From Petrotoga sp. 9PWA.NaAc.5.4 (GTDB taxonomy: Bacteria > Thermotogota > Thermotogae > Petrotogales > Petrotogaceae): a stretch of DNA of 64,000 nucleotides. Position numbers and translations under genes: made by a program. Under the pieces are notes generated by a model. The model was not told the origin of the DNA. It did not search any database and saw nothing but the letters and a program-made list of their open reading frames with translations. Below are positions 26,598 through 36,536 of the stretch, one piece after another; position 1 is the first letter of the stretch, and each line of letters opens with the position of its first letter. The stretch lies in NCBI RefSeq assembly GCF_002895485.1, contig NZ_AZRK01000042.1, forward strand, positions 1 through 64,000, written 5' to 3'.

Positions 26598-26626
26598 TTG
26601 ACAAAATTAATTTTTTCTGATACAAT
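26598..26626 (+). promoter_or_regulatory. Promoter of the arginine operon
   Basis: TTGACA at 26598-26603, a 17-base spacer, and TACAAT at 26621-26626: close to the sigma-70 consensus. The start of transcription would be near 26633, giving a leader of almost 400 bases before argJ that contains the attenuator. Confidence 0.75.
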
Positions 26627-26661
26627 TTAAAAAATTATTGAAAAGGGAGTTTTTTAAGTAT

Positions 26662-26784
26662 ATGAATTTGAAGGATAATTGTTTTTTTATAAATACTAAT
26701 GTTATTTCTAATGAAAATAATAATAGGAGGCGCCAATGTAGCCGGTGGTTCATAAGCACCGGTACGTTGGTGCTTATGAGATAG
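26662..26784 (+). CDS. Arginine-rich leader peptide of the arg operon
   Basis: This 40-codon open frame starts at ATG 26662 behind GGGAG (26645-26649) and ends at TAG 26782. The peptide begins MNLKDNCFFINTNVISNENN. Codons 22-24 are AGG AGG CGC, three consecutive arginines, followed by QCS, a CGG arginine, and a final arginine at codon 40. Such G+C-rich arginine codons stand out in this A+T-rich genome. The arginine run ends two bases before the 5' arm of the antiterminator helix. Position, composition and the operon downstream all fit a classical attenuation leader. The spacing of the ribosome-binding site (12 bases) is a little long. Confidence 0.75.
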   Translation: MNLKDNCFFINTNVISNENNNRRRQCSRWFISTGTLVLMR

Positions 26785-26852
26785 GAATTAAAGAAATTCC
26801 TATCGATTTAAAATCACACGGCTACATCTAAATTAGATGTAGCCGTTTTTTT
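26736..26852 (+). promoter_or_regulatory. Transcription attenuator (three-way-junction antiterminator versus terminator)
   Basis: Helix P1 pairs ATGTAGCCG (26736-26744) with CGGCTACAT (26819-26827); GTG/CAC extends it past one bulged A. It encloses P2 (CATAAGCACC 26751-26760 with GGTGCTTATG 26769-26778) and P3 (GATAGGAATT 26780-26789 with AATTCCTATC 26795-26804). The 3' arm of P1 is also the 5' arm of the terminator, so the two states exclude each other. P2 and the start of P3 are overlapped by the last codons and stop of the leader peptide. Confidence 0.8.
26819..26852 (+). terminator. Intrinsic terminator of the arg leader
   Basis: CGGCTACATCT (26819-26829), loop AAATT, and AGATGTAGCCG (26835-26845) form an 11-bp perfect stem followed by seven T residues. 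It lies about 175 bases upstream of argJ and would stop leader transcripts unless P1 forms. Confidence 0.9.
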
Positions 26853-26871
26853 ATTACTTATGAACTTAGTA

Positions 26872-26996
26872 ACTTTAGAAAGAGAGATTTTCTGAAAAAT
26901 GAGTTTTTAGATTTAAAACAGGTTCGTGGCGGAGCTCCATTCTCTTTTTCTTAGCTACAGATAGCATAGAATATAAGTTTAATAAATTTCTAAAGT
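26872..26996 (+). repeat. Intergenic TIR element, shortened copy, before argJ
   Basis: The copy starts ACTTTAGAAA at 26872 and ends ATTTCTAAAGT at 26986-26996. It contains GGCGGAGCTCC and TTAGCTACAGATAGC, variants of the two core hairpins. It is about 125 bp against 200 bp for full copies. It lies between the arg attenuator and argJ. Confidence 0.75.
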
Positions 26997-27027
26997 AAGT
27001 ATAAAAAATCTTAATAGGAGGAGAACT

Positions 27028-28260
27028 ATGTTTGAATTAATATCTCAAAAAACAATAAACTTACCGATAGGTTACAAAATGGCAGGGATTCATTGTGGAA
27101 TAAAAAAATCAAAAAAAGACCTTGGAGTTATTTATTCAGTAGAAAAGGCTAATGCAGCTGCGGTTTTTACAACTAATAAGGTTAAAGCTGCCCCAGTTCT
27201 TTTAAGCATGAAAAATATTGAAAACAACGAAATTCAAGCAATAATTGTTAATAGTGGAAATGCCAATGCATGTACAGGCGAAAAGGGATATTCTGACTCT
27301 TTAGAAATGGCTTCTAAGACAGCTTTGGCTTTAGACATATTACCTGAAGATGTGTTTGTATGTTCAACAGGTGTAATCGGTATGCCTTTAGATATGGAAA
27401 AAATTGTTTCAGGTATTACCAAAATTTCACAAATTTTATCTACAGGATCAGAAAAAAACGATGATTTATTGAATTTTGCAAATGCAATTATGACAACGGA
27501 TACTTTTCCAAAAGTTTATTCTAAGGAAGTTTTAATTCATGGAAAGAAGATTACGATTGTTGGTATAGCAAAGGGTTCTGGAATGATACATCCTAATATG
27601 GCAACTATGTTATCTTTTATATTAACAGACGCTAATATTGAAAAGTCGGCTTTAAATAAAGCTTTAAAAAATTCAGTTAACGATTCCTACAATATGATAA
27701 GTGTAGATGGAGATACAAGCACTAACGATACTGTAGTAATTTTAGCTAACAAAAAGGCAGCAAATAAAGAAATTTTTGAAGATACAGAAGAATTTTATAT
27801 TTTTTGTGAGGCTTTAAATGAAGTTAATACAGCTTTGGCCAAAATGATCGTAAAAGATGGTGAAGGAGCAACTAAGTTTTTGGAAGTAGAAGTTACAGGA
27901 GCTAAAACTGTAGAAGATGCCAAATTGATATCTAGGACTGTTATTAAATCAAATTTAGTTAAAACAGCTTTTTTTGGAGAAGATGCTAATTGGGGAAGAA
28001 TAATTGCAGCAGCAGGTTATTCGGGTGCAAATTTTGACCCAGGCAATGTATATATTTATCTTGAAAATAAAGTTGGAAAAATAAATGTTTGCCAAAATGG
28101 ACATTTCATTAATTTTAGTGAAGAAAAAGCAAAAGAAATATTGAAAGAAAAGGAAATAAAGATATTGATTAATTTAAGGGAAGGGAAAGAAAAAGCAGTA
28201 AGTTGGGGTTGTGATATGAGCTATGATTACATAAAAATAAACGGAGGATACAGATCATGA
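27028..28260 (+). CDS. argJ: Bifunctional glutamate N-acetyltransferase/amino-acid acetyltransferase
   Basis: ArgJ transfers acetyl from N-acetylornithine to glutamate; bifunctional forms also use acetyl-CoA. The autoproteolysis motif is ATML in GMIHPNMATMLSF, where the precursor splits before Thr. NSGNANACTGEKG near residue 75 and the C-terminal GGYRS are typical. The length of 410 is normal. It starts after GGAGGAG and overlaps argB by four bases. Because it recycles acetyl groups, no argA or argE is needed for the cluster. It is the first structural gene behind the attenuator. Confidence 0.95.
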   Translation: MFELISQKTINLPIGYKMAGIHCGIKKSKKDLGVIYSVEKANAAAVFTTNKVKAAPVLLSMKNIENNEIQAIIVNSGNANACTGEKGYSDSLEMASKTALALDILPEDVFVCSTGVIGMPLDMEKIVSGITKISQILSTGSEKNDDLLNFANAIMTTDTFPKVYSKEVLIHGKKITIVGIAKGSGMIHPNMATMLSFILTDANIEKSALNKALKNSVNDSYNMISVDGDTSTNDTVVILANKKAANKEIFEDTEEFYIFCEALNEVNTALAKMIVKDGEGATKFLEVEVTGAKTVEDAKLISRTVIKSNLVKTAFFGEDANWGRIIAAAGYSGANFDPGNVYIYLENKVGKINVCQNGHFINFSEEKAKEILKEKEIKILINLREGKEKAVSWGCDMSYDYIKINGGYRS

Positions 28261-29156
28261 TAAAAGAAGAAAAGTATCTAAATGAAATCGAAAAAGCAGA
28301 AGTTTTAGTTGAAGCATTGCCATATATTAAAAAGTTTTCTGGCAAGATTGCTGTAATCAAGTACGGTGGTAATGCTATGACAGATGAAGAAAGTAAAAGA
28401 ATGGTTATGCAAGATATTGTTTTAATGAAGTATGTTGGGTTAAATCCTGTAATTGTGCATGGTGGAGGTCCTGAAATAAATAATATGTTGAAACAATTAA
28501 ACATCGAAACAAAATTTGTAAATGGATTGAGAGTTACAGATGAAAAAGTTATGGAAATAGTGGAAATGGTGCTTGTAGGAAAAATAAACAAAGAAATAAT
28601 TTCTACTATAAATGCTTTAGGAGGTAAAGCCGTAGGAATAAGTGGAAAAGATGCAAATTTAATATTGGCAAAAAAAGACGAAACTTATGGTGACTTAGGT
28701 TATGTTGGAGATATTGTTGAAATAAATAAAGAAATAGTTTTGACATTAATTGAAAAAGGTTATATTCCTGTAATTGCTCCATGTGCTATAGGAATAGACG
28801 GAAAAACATACAATGTAAATGCAGATGTTGCTGCTGGTGGAATAGCTTCAGCGTTAAAAGCTGAAAAATTCATACTTTTAACTGATGTAGAAGGTGTTTT
28901 AAAAGATACACACGATAAAAATAGCGTTATTCCAAGAATGAGCTATGAACAAGCCAAAGAATTTTTAAATTCAGGATATGTAAGCAAAGGTATGATCCCA
29001 AAGTTAAAATGCTGTATCAAGTCAATAGAAAACGGAGTTAAAAGAGCTCATATAATTGATGGAAGAATATCGCATGCGTTGCTTTTGGAGATTTTTACTG
29101 ATAAAGGTATAGGAACTATGATTGCAAAGGAGTGTTATGATGATGATAACTTATAA
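28257..29156 (+). CDS. argB: N-acetylglutamate kinase
   Basis: It phosphorylates N-acetylglutamate, the second step of ornithine synthesis and usually the arginine-controlled one. Motifs of the amino-acid kinase fold are KIAVIKYGGNAM near residue 29, VIVHGGGPEINNML, and NADVAAGGIASALKAEKFILLTD near 185. An N-terminal helix of about 20 residues precedes the fold, the element used by arginine-sensitive hexameric forms; sensitivity is inference. The start overlaps the argJ stop (ATGA) and the end overlaps argD. Confidence 0.95.
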   Translation: MIKEEKYLNEIEKAEVLVEALPYIKKFSGKIAVIKYGGNAMTDEESKRMVMQDIVLMKYVGLNPVIVHGGGPEINNMLKQLNIETKFVNGLRVTDEKVMEIVEMVLVGKINKEIISTINALGGKAVGISGKDANLILAKKDETYGDLGYVGDIVEINKEIVLTLIEKGYIPVIAPCAIGIDGKTYNVNADVAAGGIASALKAEKFILLTDVEGVLKDTHDKNSVIPRMSYEQAKEFLNSGYVSKGMIPKLKCCIKSIENGVKRAHIIDGRISHALLLEIFTDKGIGTMIAKECYDDDNL

Positions 29157-30324
29157 AGAAGATAAAAATCACGTAATGAATACATATTCAAGATATCCTA
29201 TCAAGTTGGTAAAAGGTAATGGGTGTAAAGTTTGGGATAGTGAAGGTAATGAATATCTCGATTTTGTAGCAGGAATTGCTGTTAATTCCTTAGGGCATTC
29301 TCACCCTGAAGTAGTAAATGCGATAAAAGAACAATCAGAAAAACTTATACATTGTTCGAATTTATATTGGAATGAAAATCAGATAGAACTGGCAAATATT
29401 ATCTGTGAAAATTCTTTTGGAGAAAAAGTATTTTTTGCTAATAGCGGTGCTGAAGCAAATGAAGCAGCGATAAAATTGGCAAGAAAATACGGAACTTTAA
29501 AATATGGTGGGAAAAAGTACAAAATAATAGCAGCAACAAATTCTTTTCATGGAAGAACTTACGGGGCTTTAACTGCTACAGGCCAGTTTAAATATCAAAA
29601 GGGGTTTGAACCTTTAGTACCAGGGTTTAAGTATGTTAAATATAACGATATTGATGATTTAGAATCTGCCATTGATGATGAAACTTGTGCGGTCATGTTA
29701 GAGCCAATACAAGGTGAAGGTGGAATAAATGAAGGAGATAAAAATTATTTACAAGAAGTTAGAAAGTTATGCGACGAAAAGGACATATTATTGATTTTTG
29801 ATGAGGTTCAAACGGGAATTGGAAGAACAGGAAAACTTTTTGCTTATGAACATTTTGGTATAGTTCCAAATGTAATGACATTAGCTAAAGGTTTAGGAAG
29901 TGGTTTTCCAATTGGTGCAATGATTGTTGATGAAAAAGCAGATGTTTTTGTACCTGGAGATCACGCATCTACTTTTGGAGGAAATCCTCTTGCATGTGCC
30001 ATAGGAATAAAAGTTATGAAAATAATTAGTGATAAATCTTTTTTAGATCAAATAAAAGATAAGGGGGATTATCTTAAGAAACATCTTTTTTATATTAAAG
30101 AAAAATATTCTATTATGGAAGAAGTTAGAGGGAAAGGTTTGATGATCGGATGTAAATTAAATATGCAAGAAGGTGGAGAAATAGTCAAACAAGCAATGAA
30201 AAAAGGATTGTTAATAAATATAGTAAACCACAATGTTTTAAGATTTGTTCCACCATTAATAGTTACAAAATCAGAAATTGACCAAGCTTTGGAAATATTA
30301 GAAGATGTCTTTAAAAATTTTTAA
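29137..30324 (+). CDS. argD: Acetylornithine aminotransferase
   Basis: This PLP-dependent enzyme makes N-acetylornithine from the semialdehyde with glutamate as donor. Features are GIAVNSLGHSHPEVV, FFANSGAEANEAAIKLARKY, IFDEVQTGIGRTG, and the PLP lysine in TLAKGLGSGFPIGA. Three ATG codons follow one another; I choose 29137 behind AAAGGAG, but 29140 is equally possible. The first 20 bases overlap the end of argB. The length of 395 is normal. Confidence 0.94.
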   Translation: MMMITYKEDKNHVMNTYSRYPIKLVKGNGCKVWDSEGNEYLDFVAGIAVNSLGHSHPEVVNAIKEQSEKLIHCSNLYWNENQIELANIICENSFGEKVFFANSGAEANEAAIKLARKYGTLKYGGKKYKIIAATNSFHGRTYGALTATGQFKYQKGFEPLVPGFKYVKYNDIDDLESAIDDETCAVMLEPIQGEGGINEGDKNYLQEVRKLCDEKDILLIFDEVQTGIGRTGKLFAYEHFGIVPNVMTLAKGLGSGFPIGAMIVDEKADVFVPGDHASTFGGNPLACAIGIKVMKIISDKSFLDQIKDKGDYLKKHLFYIKEKYSIMEEVRGKGLMIGCKLNMQEGGEIVKQAMKKGLLINIVNHNVLRFVPPLIVTKSEIDQALEILEDVFKNF

Positions 30325-30368: not shown

Positions 30369-33300
30369 ATGCCAAAAAATAATGATATAAAAAGGGTGTT
30401 AGTAATTGGTTCGGGACCTATCACCATAGGTCAAGCTGCAGAATTTGATTACTCAGGTACACAAGCATGTAAATCATTGAAAGAAGAAGGATGTAAAGTT
30501 ATTCTTGTAAACAATAATCCCGCTACAATTATGACTGATATTGAAATAGCTGATAAAGTATATGTAGAGAATCCAGAATTAGATGTTATTGAAAAAATCA
30601 TTTCGAAAGAAAGACCTGATGGAATTCTTGGGACATTGGGAGGACAAACAGGACTAAATCTTACTATAAAGCTTAAAGAAAGCGGAATTCTTGATAGATA
30701 CAACGTTAAAGTGTTAGGAACTTCTGTAGAGTCTATAAAGACAGCAGAAAGTAGAGAATTATTTAAAAAGAAGATGTTGGAAATAAAAGAACCTGTAGCT
30801 GAAAGTATTACAGTAAATAACGTGAAAGAAGCTTTGAATTTTGTAAACAATGTAGGATTCCCTTTAATTATTCGTCCGGCTTTTACTTTAGGAGGTACTG
30901 GTGGAGGCTTTGCGTATAACGAAAAAGAATTGGTTGATTTTGTGGAATCAGGGTTAAGTAAAAGTATGACAAAAGAAGTACTGATAGAAAAATCTTTATA
31001 TGGTTGGAAAGAAATTGAATTTGAGGTTATAAGAGATAAATCGGATAACTGTATAATTGTGTGTGATATGGAAAATATCGATCCTGTAGGTATTCATACT
31101 GGTGATAGTATTGTAGTTGCACCTTGTCAAACATTGAAAAAGTCGGAAATCCAACTGTTAAAAAATTCTGCTATTAAAATTGTAAAAGCCTTAAAAATTG
31201 AAGGAGGCAGTAATATACAATTTGCCTTACATCCTTATAGCGGTGAATACTATGTGATTGAGGTAAATCCAAGACTTAGCAGATCAAGCGCACTTGCTTC
31301 TAAAGCAAGCGGGTATCCGATAGCAAGAATTGTCTCGAAAATTGCTTTAGGATACAATTTAAATGAAATAAAAAATCCAGTAAACGAAGAAACAACAGCG
31401 TTTTATGAACCTTCACTTAATTATACAGTAACTAAAATACCAAGATGGCCGTTTGATAAATTCATAAATGCGGATAAAGAAATAGGGACACAAATGAAAT
31501 CTACTGGAGAAGTAATGGCAATAGCTTCGAGCTTTGAAGAATCTTTACTAAAAGCGGTAAGATCTTTAGAAATCAAAAAATACGGATTAAGAGACGAGAA
31601 AGTTCATCAAGAAGATGATAATAAATTAATTGAAAATCTGAAAAAGCCAACAGATAAAAGATTGTTTTATATAGCTGAAGCTTTAAGAAGAGAAATGAGC
31701 ATAGAAAAAATTTATGAATGGACTTTTATTGATCCATGGTTTTTAAAAAAGATAAAATCGATAGTTGAAATGGAAAAAAAGATAAAAGGCTCTATCTTAG
31801 ATGAAGATGTATTGATTAAAGCAAAAAAAATGGGTTTTACCGACAAAGAAATTGCAGAATTGAAAGGTTTAAATGAACAAGAAGTATTGTCTCTTCGAAA
31901 AACATACAAAATATTTCCATCTTATAAGTTTGTTAATACTCACCCACAACATCCCAAGACTTCTGCGGAATATTTGTATTCTACCTATTATGATAAAGAT
32001 GACGAAGTAAATGTTCATAATATGAAAAAAGTTGTAGTAATAGGATCTGGACCCATACGAATTGGACAAGGAGTAGAATTCGATTATTGTACAGTTAAAG
32101 CTTTATGGGCGTTGAAAGAAAGTGGAATAAAATCAATCATTATCAACAATAATCCGGAAACTGTGAGTACTGACTTTGATACGGGAGATAGACTTTACTT
32201 TGAACCTTTAACTTTAGAAGACGTTTTAAACATTCTCGAAAAAGAAAATCCTATAGGGGTTATGGTTATGTTTGGTGGTCAAACAGCTCTTAACTTAACT
32301 GAAGCTCTTGAGAAAAACGGAATAAAAATTTTAGGAACTCAATATGAAAATATAGATTTAAGTGAAGATAGAAAAAAATTTTCTATGTTATTAAAACAAT
32401 TGGGAATCAAGCAGCCTCAGTGTGGCTATGCTACTTCTTATGAAGAAGCTATCGAAATAGCTAAAGACATAGGATTTCCACTTTTAGTAAGACCTTCTTA
32501 TGTTATTGGGGGGCAGTCTATTGAAAAAGTAAGAAATTTTGAAGAACTATTTAGCTATGTAAATCAGGCTTTAAAGCTATCTTCAAATAGACCTATTTTG
32601 ATAGATCAATACATAGATGGGAAAGAAGTAGAAATAGATGCTGTTTCTGATGGTGAAAATATACTAATTCCAGGAATTATGGAACATGTAGAAAAGGCTG
32701 GTATTCATTCTGGAGATAGTTTCGCCATATTTCCTGCAAGAAACTTGACAAAAGAAGAAAAAGACAAAATAGTTGAATATTCAACAAAGATTTCAAAAGC
32801 TTTGCATGTCAAAGGTCTTATAAATATCCAATTTATTGTTAAAGATGGAGAAGTTTATGTTTTAGAAGTTAATCCCAGAGCTTCAAGAACCGTTCCTATA
32901 ATAAGTAAAGTTACAAGAATTCCTTTGGTTAAAATAGCTGTTGATATAGCTTTGAATAAAACCTTAGATGAAATGGGCTATAATGAAGTTATTTTAGAAG
33001 ATATCACTTATACTGTAGTCAAAGCACCGATCTTTTCTTTGGAAAAGTTATCTAATGTAGAAGTAGCTTTGGAGGCTGAAATGAAATCAACAGGTGAAAC
33101 TATTGGTATTGATTTAAACTATTATAATGCTGCTTACAAAGCATTGAAAAGTGCTGGATTAAATCTTCCAACAAAAGGAAAGATACTGATTTCTTTATCA
33201 AAAGAAAGTTTTAAAGAATCATATTCGGTAATAAAATATTATGAAACCAATGGATATGAATTGTATGGAACGATAGGTACGGTTGAGTATTTTAAAATGC

Positions 33301-33608
33301 TCGGTATAGAAATTGAACCTTTGAATTTTGAAAAAGCTATAGACTTGATAAAAGAAAAGTTCTTTGATGTTGTTATAAATATTCCTACTAAAGGTAAAGA
33401 AATCAAAAACTATGGATTCAAATTGAGAAGTACGTGTGTTAAATATGGTGTTACTTTATTTACTTCTTTAGAAACTTCAAAATTTGCTCTTGAAGCATCA
33501 AAAAATTTAAATATAGAAGATAGTAGTATCCTATCATTAAATGAATACCTCAAAATACTTGAGAACAGAAAGAAAAATTCTATTAAAGTAACTAAAGCAA
33601 CTAATTAA
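30369..33608 (+). CDS. carB: Carbamoyl-phosphate synthase large subunit
   Basis: This 1079-residue synthetase has two homologous ATP-grasp halves, each opened by a GSGPIxIGQ motif (GSGPITIGQAAEFDYSGTQA near residue 14 and GSGPIRIGQGVEFDYCTVKA near 560). An oligomerisation domain lies between them, and a C-terminal MGS-type allosteric domain starts near 930. It makes carbamoyl phosphate for citrulline and pyrimidines. The glutaminase subunit carA is not in the window, nor is argF, so both must be elsewhere. It starts after AGGAGGGG. Confidence 0.95.
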   Translation: MPKNNDIKRVLVIGSGPITIGQAAEFDYSGTQACKSLKEEGCKVILVNNNPATIMTDIEIADKVYVENPELDVIEKIISKERPDGILGTLGGQTGLNLTIKLKESGILDRYNVKVLGTSVESIKTAESRELFKKKMLEIKEPVAESITVNNVKEALNFVNNVGFPLIIRPAFTLGGTGGGFAYNEKELVDFVESGLSKSMTKEVLIEKSLYGWKEIEFEVIRDKSDNCIIVCDMENIDPVGIHTGDSIVVAPCQTLKKSEIQLLKNSAIKIVKALKIEGGSNIQFALHPYSGEYYVIEVNPRLSRSSALASKASGYPIARIVSKIALGYNLNEIKNPVNEETTAFYEPSLNYTVTKIPRWPFDKFINADKEIGTQMKSTGEVMAIASSFEESLLKAVRSLEIKKYGLRDEKVHQEDDNKLIENLKKPTDKRLFYIAEALRREMSIEKIYEWTFIDPWFLKKIKSIVEMEKKIKGSILDEDVLIKAKKMGFTDKEIAELKGLNEQEVLSLRKTYKIFPSYKFVNTHPQHPKTSAEYLYSTYYDKDDEVNVHNMKKVVVIGSGPIRIGQGVEFDYCTVKALWALKESGIKSIIINNNPETVSTDFDTGDRLYFEPLTLEDVLNILEKENPIGVMVMFGGQTALNLTEALEKNGIKILGTQYENIDLSEDRKKFSMLLKQLGIKQPQCGYATSYEEAIEIAKDIGFPLLVRPSYVIGGQSIEKVRNFEELFSYVNQALKLSSNRPILIDQYIDGKEVEIDAVSDGENILIPGIMEHVEKAGIHSGDSFAIFPARNLTKEEKDKIVEYSTKISKALHVKGLINIQFIVKDGEVYVLEVNPRASRTVPIISKVTRIPLVKIAVDIALNKTLDEMGYNEVILEDITYTVVKAPIFSLEKLSNVEVALEAEMKSTGETIGIDLNYYNAAYKALKSAGLNLPTKGKILISLSKESFKESYSVIKYYETNGYELYGTIGTVEYFKMLGIEIEPLNFEKAIDLIKEKFFDVVINIPTKGKEIKNYGFKLRSTCVKYGVTLFTSLETSKFALEASKNLNIEDSSILSLNEYLKILENRKKNSIKVTKATN

Positions 33609-33663: not shown

Positions 33664-34905
33664 ATGGAAAAAGAAAAAGTTGTGTTGGCATATTCGGGAG
33701 GTTTAGATACGTCTGTTATTATTCCTTGGTTAAAAGAAAACTATAATTTTGAAATTATTGCTGCTTGCATTGATGTTGGTCAAGGTAAAGAAATTGAAAG
33801 TATTAAGGAAAAAGCACTTTTAAGTGGTGCGAGCAAGGCCTATGTAGAAAATGTTAAAGAGGAATTTGTTAAAGACTATATTTTCCCTACTTTAAAAGCA
33901 GGAGCCGTATATGAAGGGAAGTATCTTTTAGGTACCTCTTTTGCACGTCCACTTATAGCAAAGAAATTGGTTGAAATAGCTCATAAAGAGGATGCAAAAT
34001 TTATTGCACATGGGTGTACAGGAAAAGGCAACGATCAAGTAAGATTTGAAGTTTCCATAAAAGCGCTTGATCCAACTATACAAATAATTGCTCCATGGAG
34101 AATTTGGAACATAAAATCACGAGAAGAAGAAATAAAATATGCTATTGAAAAAGGAATACCGGTTAATGTCACTAAAGAGAAAATATATAGTGTTGACAGA
34201 AACTTATGGCATGTGAGTCATGAGGGTGGAGATCTTGAAAATCCTTTGAATGAGCCAAAAATAGATTTGTTCGATATTATAACTCCTCCCGAAAAAGCTC
34301 CTGATGTCCCTGAATATATAACTATTGAATTTAAATCCGGAATTCCTGTTAAAATAAATGGTGAATTTTTAAATCCTGTTGAATTGATAGAAAAAGCAAA
34401 TGAAATAGCGGCAAAAAATGGAATAGGAATAATTGATATGATAGAAAATAGATTAGTAGGAATGAAATCAAGAGGTGTATACGAAACTCCAGGAGGAACA
34501 ATATTGTATTATGCTCATAAGGAGTTAGAAACATTAGTATTGGATAAAGATACCATGAGATTTAAAGAACTTATTTCTCAGAAATATGCGGATCTTGTAT
34601 ATAATGGCCTTTGGTTTTCTCAGTTGAAAGAAGCGTTAGATGCTTTTGTAGATGAAACACAGAAAGTAGTTACGGGTATTGTTAAGTTAAAACTTTACAA
34701 AGGAAATATAATAACAGCAGGTTTGCAATCACCTTATTCTTTGTATAATGAGGATTTAGCAACTTTTGGAGAAGATAAAATATATGATCAAAAAGATGCG
34801 GAAGGATTCATAAATTTATTTGGATTACCTCTAAAAGTTAGAGCTCATCAAGTAAATAAATTAAAAATGGAAGCTAACCAATGTGAAGTTAAAATAGAAC
34901 TTTAA
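33664..34905 (+). CDS. argG: Argininosuccinate synthase
   Basis: It joins citrulline and aspartate with ATP. The ATP-pyrophosphatase loop is [16 protein letters not shown] near residue 8. Further family blocks are [32 protein letters not shown], and [16 protein letters not shown] near 180. Its 413 residues are normal. It follows carB by 55 bases with a GAGGTGA site. The 3' side carries a partial and then a full copy of the TIR element before argH. Confidence 0.96.
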
Positions 34906-35174: not shown

Positions 35175-35204
35175 GAGTAAAGTTAAAAGTTGAGGAGGAA
35201 TTAT

Positions 35205-36536
35205 ATGAAACTTTGGGGAGGAAGATTCAAAGATGGTTTAGATGAAACAATGGAAAAATTTAATTCTTCTATTTATTTTGACATAAGACTTTTACCTTAT
35301 GATATACAAGCTTCAATCGCTCATGCTGCAGGTTTAAAAAAGGCTGGCGTTTTGACCGAGAAAGAATTTAATATCATAAAAACAGGTTTGGAAGAAATCA
35401 ATAATCAAGGAAACATTGAAAATATTGATTATACTGTAGAAGATGTGCATACTCTTGTAGAGAAGTTATTAATCGAAAAAATAGGAGAAATTGCAAAAAA
35501 ATTACATACAGGAAGAAGTAGAAACGATCAAGTTGCTACAGATGAGAGACTTTATTTACGTGAGCAAATTTTATCTATCATAAAGTTAATTGATGAATTG
35601 ATAAATGTTCTTGAAGAATGTGCAAATAAATCAAAAAACATAATAATGCCTGGTTACACGCATCTTCAAAGGGCTCAACCAATTACTTTTTCACATCATA
35701 TTTTAGCATATGTTGAAATGTTAAAAAGAGATAAATCTCGATTAAATGATCTAAAAAAGAGAGTTAACATTATGCCTTTAGGATCTGGAGCTATGGCAGG
35801 TACTACATTTGATATAGATAGAAAATATGTTGCATCCTTGCTAAACTTTGATGATATTTCTTATAACAGTATAGATGCTGTTAGCGATAGAGATTTTATA
35901 GTTGAGTTTCTAAGTGTTTCTTCGATTATAATGATGCATCTAAGTAGATTTTGTGAAGAAATAGTTCTATGGTCTACAAAAGAATTTAATTTTGTAGAAA
36001 TTGATGAGAAATATTCTACAGGTAGCAGTATTATGCCTCAAAAGAAAAATCCTGATTCTGCAGAACTAATAAGAGGAAAAACAGGAAGGGTTTATGGGAG
36101 TTTGATTTCTCTTCTTACAGTTATGAAAGGATTGCCTCTTGCTTATAATAAAGATATGCAAGAAGATAAGGAACCACTTTTTGATACAATAGACACTCTA
36201 AAAAATTCTCTAAAGGTTTTTAAAGGAATGATTGAAACTTTGCATATAAAAGGTGAAAACATTCAGCAAGCTGCTAAATATGGTTATATGAATGCTACTG
36301 ATTTAGCTGACTATTTAGTAAGAAAAGGTTTAACATTTCGAGATGCTCATGAAGTAGTAGGAAAAATTGTTTCTTATGCTATTGAAAAAAATGTTCCTAT
36401 TGAGCAATTAAGTATCCAAGAATTTAAAAGTTTCTCAAATTTGATCGATGACGACATATATGAAGCTATAGATTTAAAGAACATACTAAAAAGTAGAAAA
36501 ACGATAGGTTCTGCAAAATGGGAGGGAGAAGTATGA
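35205..36536 (+). CDS. argH: Argininosuccinate lyase
   Basis: It releases arginine and fumarate, the last step of the pathway. The superfamily signature [20 protein letters not shown] lies near residue 279, the [19 protein letters not shown] block near 103, and [16 protein letters not shown] near 151. ATG 35205 behind GAGGAGG fits the family N-terminus [14 protein letters not shown], better than the in-frame TTG at 35190. It has 443 residues. Its stop overlaps the argC start. Confidence 0.95.

Follow-up and report, generated by a model that had tools for sequence, protein, structure and literature searches.

Which mechanism controls an arginine biosynthesis operon in a bacterium without ArgR? 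Arginine biosynthesis is usually under ArgR control. Petrotoga sp. 9PWA.NaAc.5.4 has an operon for this pathway, argJ-argB-argD-carB-argG-argH as assigned by Pfam, and no ArgR. The operon lies in a stretch of 64,000 nucleotides (contig NZ_AZRK01000042.1, positions 1 to 64,000 of the forward strand), which is the window analysed here. It is preceded by a leader (the arg leader) that an earlier note on this DNA had interpreted as an arginine attenuator. Comparison of this leader with its relatives and modelling of its RNA indicate that it is very probably a transcription attenuator of the ribosome-mediated type, with charged tRNA-Arg as the signal. In the attenuators of enterobacteria (trp, his, leu, thr, ilv, phe), the position of the ribosome sets a kinetic choice between an antiterminator and a terminator. 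To our knowledge, no classical attenuator is known for arginine biosynthesis.

Leader peptide and competing RNA structures

The features of the leader are listed in Table 1. The near-consensus promoter recognized in the earlier note is present and is conserved in relatives; matches of this type (TTGACA-17-TACAAT) number two in the whole window, against 0.54 expected. The open reading frame (ORF) of 40 codons, from ATG 26662 to TAG 26782-26784, was found as described, with AGG AGG CGC followed by a further Arg codon, CGG, at 26743-26745. In this genome, AGG, CGC and CGG are all minor codons for Arg. RRR occurs in only one of the 75 short ORFs of the window that are led by a Shine-Dalgarno (SD) sequence, the leader ORF itself, and this leader is the sole one found when the window is scanned for plausible sets of leader ORF, terminator and gene. 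It folds with −78.3 kcal/mol, compared with −39.2 kcal/mol for shuffled sequence (z −9.9). The spacer at 26853-27027, checked for a second element, has no excess structure (z −0.16).

Helices P1, P2 and P3 and the terminator are located where the earlier note placed them, but P1 is longer than it stated. In P1, 26738-26744 pairs with 26819-26825 and, past the bulged A26818, 26745-26750 pairs with 26812-26817. This antiterminator and the intrinsic terminator are mutually exclusive, and covariation backs this exclusion. Compensatory changes, which the note proposed to look for in P1 and the terminator of relatives, are found in the antiterminator: for the 11 leaders whose alignment needs no shifts, P1 has 10 double-change cells, versus 4.1 when shuffled and 0-1 when slid, although, with related sequences, the shuffle control cannot be read as a probability. 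The P1 core with an adjacent bulge or mismatch is found again across families. The three-way junction of P1, P2 and P3 forms in the modelled stalled RNA, as proposed, but neither P3 nor the three-way shape is conserved outside the family.

The naked RNA favours another fold together with the terminator. In the conserved version of this fold, 26728-26736 pairs with 26767-26775 (arms A and D, the protector) around 26742-26747 paired with 26757-26762 (the B:C hairpin). The earlier note, which overlooked the protector, had the terminator winning at high arginine because the ribosome covers P2 and P3. The same outcome is proposed here, but the conserved protector pairing explains termination at ample arginine better than this covering does.

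Conservation of the leader

A DNA search for the window leader found it in eight more genomes of two sister genera; together with the window's genome, it is present in 9 of 9 argJ-bearing genomes of the family. The promoter, SD sequence, ATG, reading frame and RRR are kept in all nine, and segment 26722-26760 is highly conserved, while the first half of the peptide differs among them in both length and sequence. A covariance model built from these nine leaders (R1) identifies leaders immediately ahead of argG in nine genomes from other families. A second covariance model (R2), built solely from the nine non-family argG leaders, returns the nine family leaders as the best hits in their genomes (E 4e-9 to 2e-11). 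Because R2 was built without the family leaders and yet finds them, it provides an independent check on homology from the reciprocal direction. The leader precedes arginine genes in at least four families of Thermotogota.

A leader ORF with a start codon is present in 18 of 18 leaders, and an SD sequence in nearly all of them; that of G058 was missed by scoring, yet GTGGGGG precedes the start region. Non-family leader peptides end, for example, in NIRRRPKRRWVISSA, NIRRRTRCRWVMNGA or NIRRRLKGRWVPIGT at the stop codon. They retain the Arg run with other codons (CGT AGA CGT; CGG AGA CGG), and over the 18 leaders the Arg residues persist through codon change (AGG, CGT, CGG, AGA, CGA, CGC). In all 18 leaders, the Arg codons lie 17, 14 and 11 nucleotides (nt) ahead of the CCG of the antiterminator arm, in constant frame; four non-family leaders (G066, G058, G044, G038) have Arg at just two of the three places. 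A test set beforehand was whether relatives keep the helices without the ORF or its Arg codons; helices, ORF and Arg codons are all retained. The presence of an ORF with Arg codons in every leader supports the interpretation as arginine attenuation.

Two other readings of the AGGAGG sequence were rejected. AGGAGG..ATGTAG (26725-26741) as an SD sequence with a start-stop codon pair is not a conserved feature, because the ATG is lost in G008, G003 and G009. AGGAGG as an SD-like pausing signal is not present in the other families, which have CGT AGA CGT and the like. A scan of public genomes with a core-motif pattern gave 44 matches, none of them leader-like and none from the window's family, and no leader was found in the viral contigs searched.

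Modelled ribosome positions and proposed mechanism

If the ribosome edge lies about 12 nt beyond the first base of the A-site codon, a ribosome on either of the first two Arg codons leaves the antiterminator arm free. The switch was modelled at 37 °C with the ribosome footprint masked and the RNA truncated before the 3' arm of the terminator. A ribosome placed at the first Arg codon of the window leader gives a modelled preference for P1 of 14.7 kcal/mol, versus 3.1 kcal/mol for the naked RNA and 3.0 kcal/mol with the ribosome at the stop codon. The corresponding means for the 18 leaders are 12.7, 3.8 and 4.8 kcal/mol. When the ribosome is slid along 14 leaders, the mean preference is maximal with the A-site 20-14 nt upstream of the arm. 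The Arg codons are located inside this optimum, so that in the model stalling there favours the antiterminator most.

The ORF, its codons, their geometry, the alternative helices and the conservation can be read from the sequences; from them we infer that the leader is translated, that the ribosome stalls in it and that the operon responds to arginine, as follows. The ribosome would translate the leader while RNA polymerase makes the remaining RNA. When Arg-tRNA is scarce, it would stall at AGG 26725 or AGG 26728 and cover arm A, such that the protector cannot form and P2 folds. The freed arm at 26738-26750 would pair with 26812-26825 once this is transcribed, and P1, by occupying the 5' arm of the terminator, would allow the operon to be read. 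When arginine is ample, the ribosome would reach TAG 26782 or leave. In this arginine-rich state, 26742-26747 would pair with 26757-26762 and A with D, P1 would not be favoured, and the terminator would halt transcription ahead of argJ. With the ribosome at the stop codon, the 3' half of P2 would be covered together with the beginning of P3; the B:C hairpin would remain free to form, and it is probably this hairpin that blocks P1.

ArgR in the class

ArgR, identified as PF02863, was sought in the 33 genomes of the class that contain a real argG, with positive control genomes; Thermotoga maritima, one of the controls, has it. Eighteen of the 33 carry the leader and 8 carry ArgR, with no overlap between the two sets. 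In six, ArgR is absent and argG has no leader immediately in front of it (loci L135, L136, L137, L138, L141, L142); one genome was left unjudged, its contig beginning inside argG. As the earlier note held, there is no ArgR in the window's genome (G000), and PF02863 is also absent from every leader-bearing genome.

Weighing of the explanations

Several results weigh against attenuation by Arg-tRNA. At equilibrium, almost all modelled states favour the terminator over P1 (P about 0.98), which makes the equilibrium probability of the terminator uninformative as a read-out. Because the terminator wins at equilibrium, any switching must depend on kinetics, as it does in the trp attenuator. One relative, G041, has no clear modelled difference between stalling and stop. 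The mutual exclusion of ArgR and the leader represents few independent events, because all eight genomes with ArgR belong to two genera within a single family, and the leader-bearing genomes are related. In addition, there are the six ArgR-less argG genomes without a leader directly before argG.

The high conservation of 26722-26760 within the family and the three-way junction in the modelled stalled RNA are what a ligand-binding riboswitch (for arginine, for example) built on P1, P2 and P3, with an incidental ORF, would have in its favour. The earlier note offered this as its alternative. It is disfavoured because conservation follows the Arg residues and not the P2/P3 junction: other families lose P2 and P3 but retain the ORF, the Arg residues and their spacing, and the Arg codons change synonymously. 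No Rfam match is found either, and a riboswitch is very improbable. Conservation is partial around the Arg run (N-x-R-R-R-x-x-x-R-W), as might be expected if arginine or ornithine bound the ribosome and arrested it on the nascent peptide, as in speFL. However, the N-terminal half, the part expected to occupy the tunnel, shows no conservation across families, sibling leaders place Lys or other codon runs at comparable distances, and ligand-induced stalling would turn a biosynthetic operon on in plenty, which is the wrong sign. Peptide arrest is rated a little lower still. A constitutive terminator, or one of a small RNA, with no sensing of arginine would account for a hairpin that is strong alone (−18.3 kcal/mol), but not for a competing antiterminator that covaries, nor for Arg codons at fixed spacing to it in 18 of 18 leaders; its probability is close to negligible. 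Attenuation by Arg-tRNA remains the preferred explanation.

Table 1. Features of the arg leader and the downstream operon (window positions)
Feature	Position	Strand	Remark
Promoter TTGACA-17 nt-TACAAT	26598..26626	+	conserved in 9 family members
SD sequence GGGAG of leader ORF	26645..26649	+	GGAG in most relatives
Leader peptide ORF, 40 residues, MNLKDNCFFINTNVISNENNNRRRQCSRWFISTGTLVLMR	26662..26784	+	same ORF in 18 genomes
Predicted stall codons AGG AGG CGC	26725..26733	+	17, 14, 11 nt before antiterminator arm; distances same in 18 genomes
Protector arm A, pairs with 26767-26775, overlaps stall codons	26728..26736	+	A-T to C-G compensatory change
P1 antiterminator 5' arm GTAGCCG-GTGGTT	26738..26750	+	
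B:C hairpin 5' arm CCGGTG, pairs with 26757-26762, sequesters antiterminator arm	26742..26747	+	
P2 hairpin (26749-26760 with 26769-26780), alternative to protector	26749..26780	+	A-T to G-C compensatory change in G003/G009
B:C hairpin 3' arm CACCGG	26757..26762	+	
Protector arm D, partner of 26728-26736	26767..26775	+	
P3 hairpin (26781-26789 with 26795-26803)	26781..26803	+	not conserved outside family
P1 antiterminator 3' arm AATCAC-(bulged A26818)-CGGCTAC	26812..26825	+	common to terminator
Intrinsic terminator (26818-26830 with 26834-26846, T-run 26846-26852)	26818..26852	+	
argJ, first gene of controlled operon	27028..28260	+	PF01960
argB-like amino acid kinase	28257..29156	+	PF00696
argD-like aminotransferase	29122..30324	+	PF00202
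carB-like carbamoyl-phosphate synthase large chain	30369..33608	+	PF02786/PF02787
argG	33664..34905	+	PF00764
argH	35190..36536	+	PF00206/PF14698

Sibling leaders with other codons

R1 and R2 also gave weaker hits, which correspond to further leader ORFs built on a similar core. Lys-rich ORFs (KKHHVKYSPGG, KKQVKYSPGG, KKYVKCPPGG) with antiterminator and terminator occur in one family of Thermotogota. The leaders NKKHHVKYSPGGGAKA, NKKQVKYSPGGRANA and NKKYVKCPPGGAVL, each ending at its stop codon, precede genes for a family-3 solute binding protein, an aspartokinase-like kinase and a diaminopimelate (DAP) epimerase. These Lys-rich leaders (L092, L095, L099, L100, L101, L105, L157, L158, L164) are candidate lysine attenuators. 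Ile/Val/Leu-rich leader ORFs (e.g. KIIYVVLILPAGG) on a similar core precede an amidohydrolase-like gene at L151, L152, L153, L155 and L104. L149 has a leader ORF with HHH (IHHHNRFCPAGIF) and a terminator; its downstream gene is by eye histidyl-tRNA synthetase-like, and the first 90 residues of the product gave no Pfam match. Arg-type sibling leaders also precede genes other than the arg operon. Leaders of the type ILRHHSRCGLRLTP, ending at the stop codon, precede a family-3 amino acid binding protein gene at L097 and L107 in a sister genus without argJ. At L159, a short ORF (NNQPEPKVWPLRHLKLGV, to its stop codon) and a terminator precede a citrate synthase gene.

The modelled stalling optimum adjoins the repeated codons in the Lys leaders and in one Arg-type leader (G057), and the profile is flat for the His and opp leaders. 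The siblings are likely, but not proven, to be homologous to the arg leader, because terminators resembling theirs in sequence are widespread in the phylum. On balance, the sequences favour a homologous family of codon-retunable ribosome attenuators in Thermotogota. It would share one RNA core (CCGGTGG arm, antiterminator with bulge, GGCYAYATC terminator), with stall codons for Arg or Lys, and probably also for His or branched-chain amino acids, swapped for one another, and would act before biosynthesis and transport genes in the role that ArgR and riboswitches have elsewhere.

Comparison with known systems

The arg leader resembles the classical enterobacterial attenuators in its peptide rich in the regulated amino acid, its alternative helices and its predicted kinetic choice. 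It differs from them in its predicted sensing of arginine, in belonging to another phylum and in its long-range antiterminator with a 1-nt bulge. It matches no leader family of Rfam: a scan of the window at gathering and permissive thresholds gave nothing relevant, and only two tRNAs in the whole window. The T-box model does not match at the leader, even at the permissive threshold, and the scan of ten sibling loci gave no match. ArgR/AhrC controls the same pathway, but as a protein repressor on DNA.

Arginine is sensed by ribosome pausing in some known leaders. The Salmonella orf34-speF leader has two consecutive Arg codons, pausing at low arginine alters mRNA folding, and ornithine decarboxylase is controlled through Rho, RNase G and translation (PMC6386406). 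In contrast to the arg leader, it has no intrinsic-terminator switch on arginine biosynthesis. Rare Arg codons of the rbfL upstream ORF of Staphylococcus aureus also sense arginine via ribosome pausing (PMC13009471), but this ORF blocks the next ribosome binding site, concerns a biofilm regulator and reduces expression when arginine is low. In Pseudomonas aeruginosa, a leader peptide is reported upstream of carA and attenuation is proposed in the genus (via PMC4997734). This leader likewise precedes an arginine/pyrimidine gene, but a different one, in another phylum and with ArgR present. No arginine attenuator in Thermotogota was found in the open literature searched.

The presence of a putative attenuator before the arg operon in ArgR-less families of Thermotogota, and its absence from the ArgR genera, suggests that the regulatory logic of one pathway has been swapped. 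The Lys and other siblings on a similar core suggest that ribosome attenuators may be retuned by codon exchange, as T-boxes are by their specifiers.
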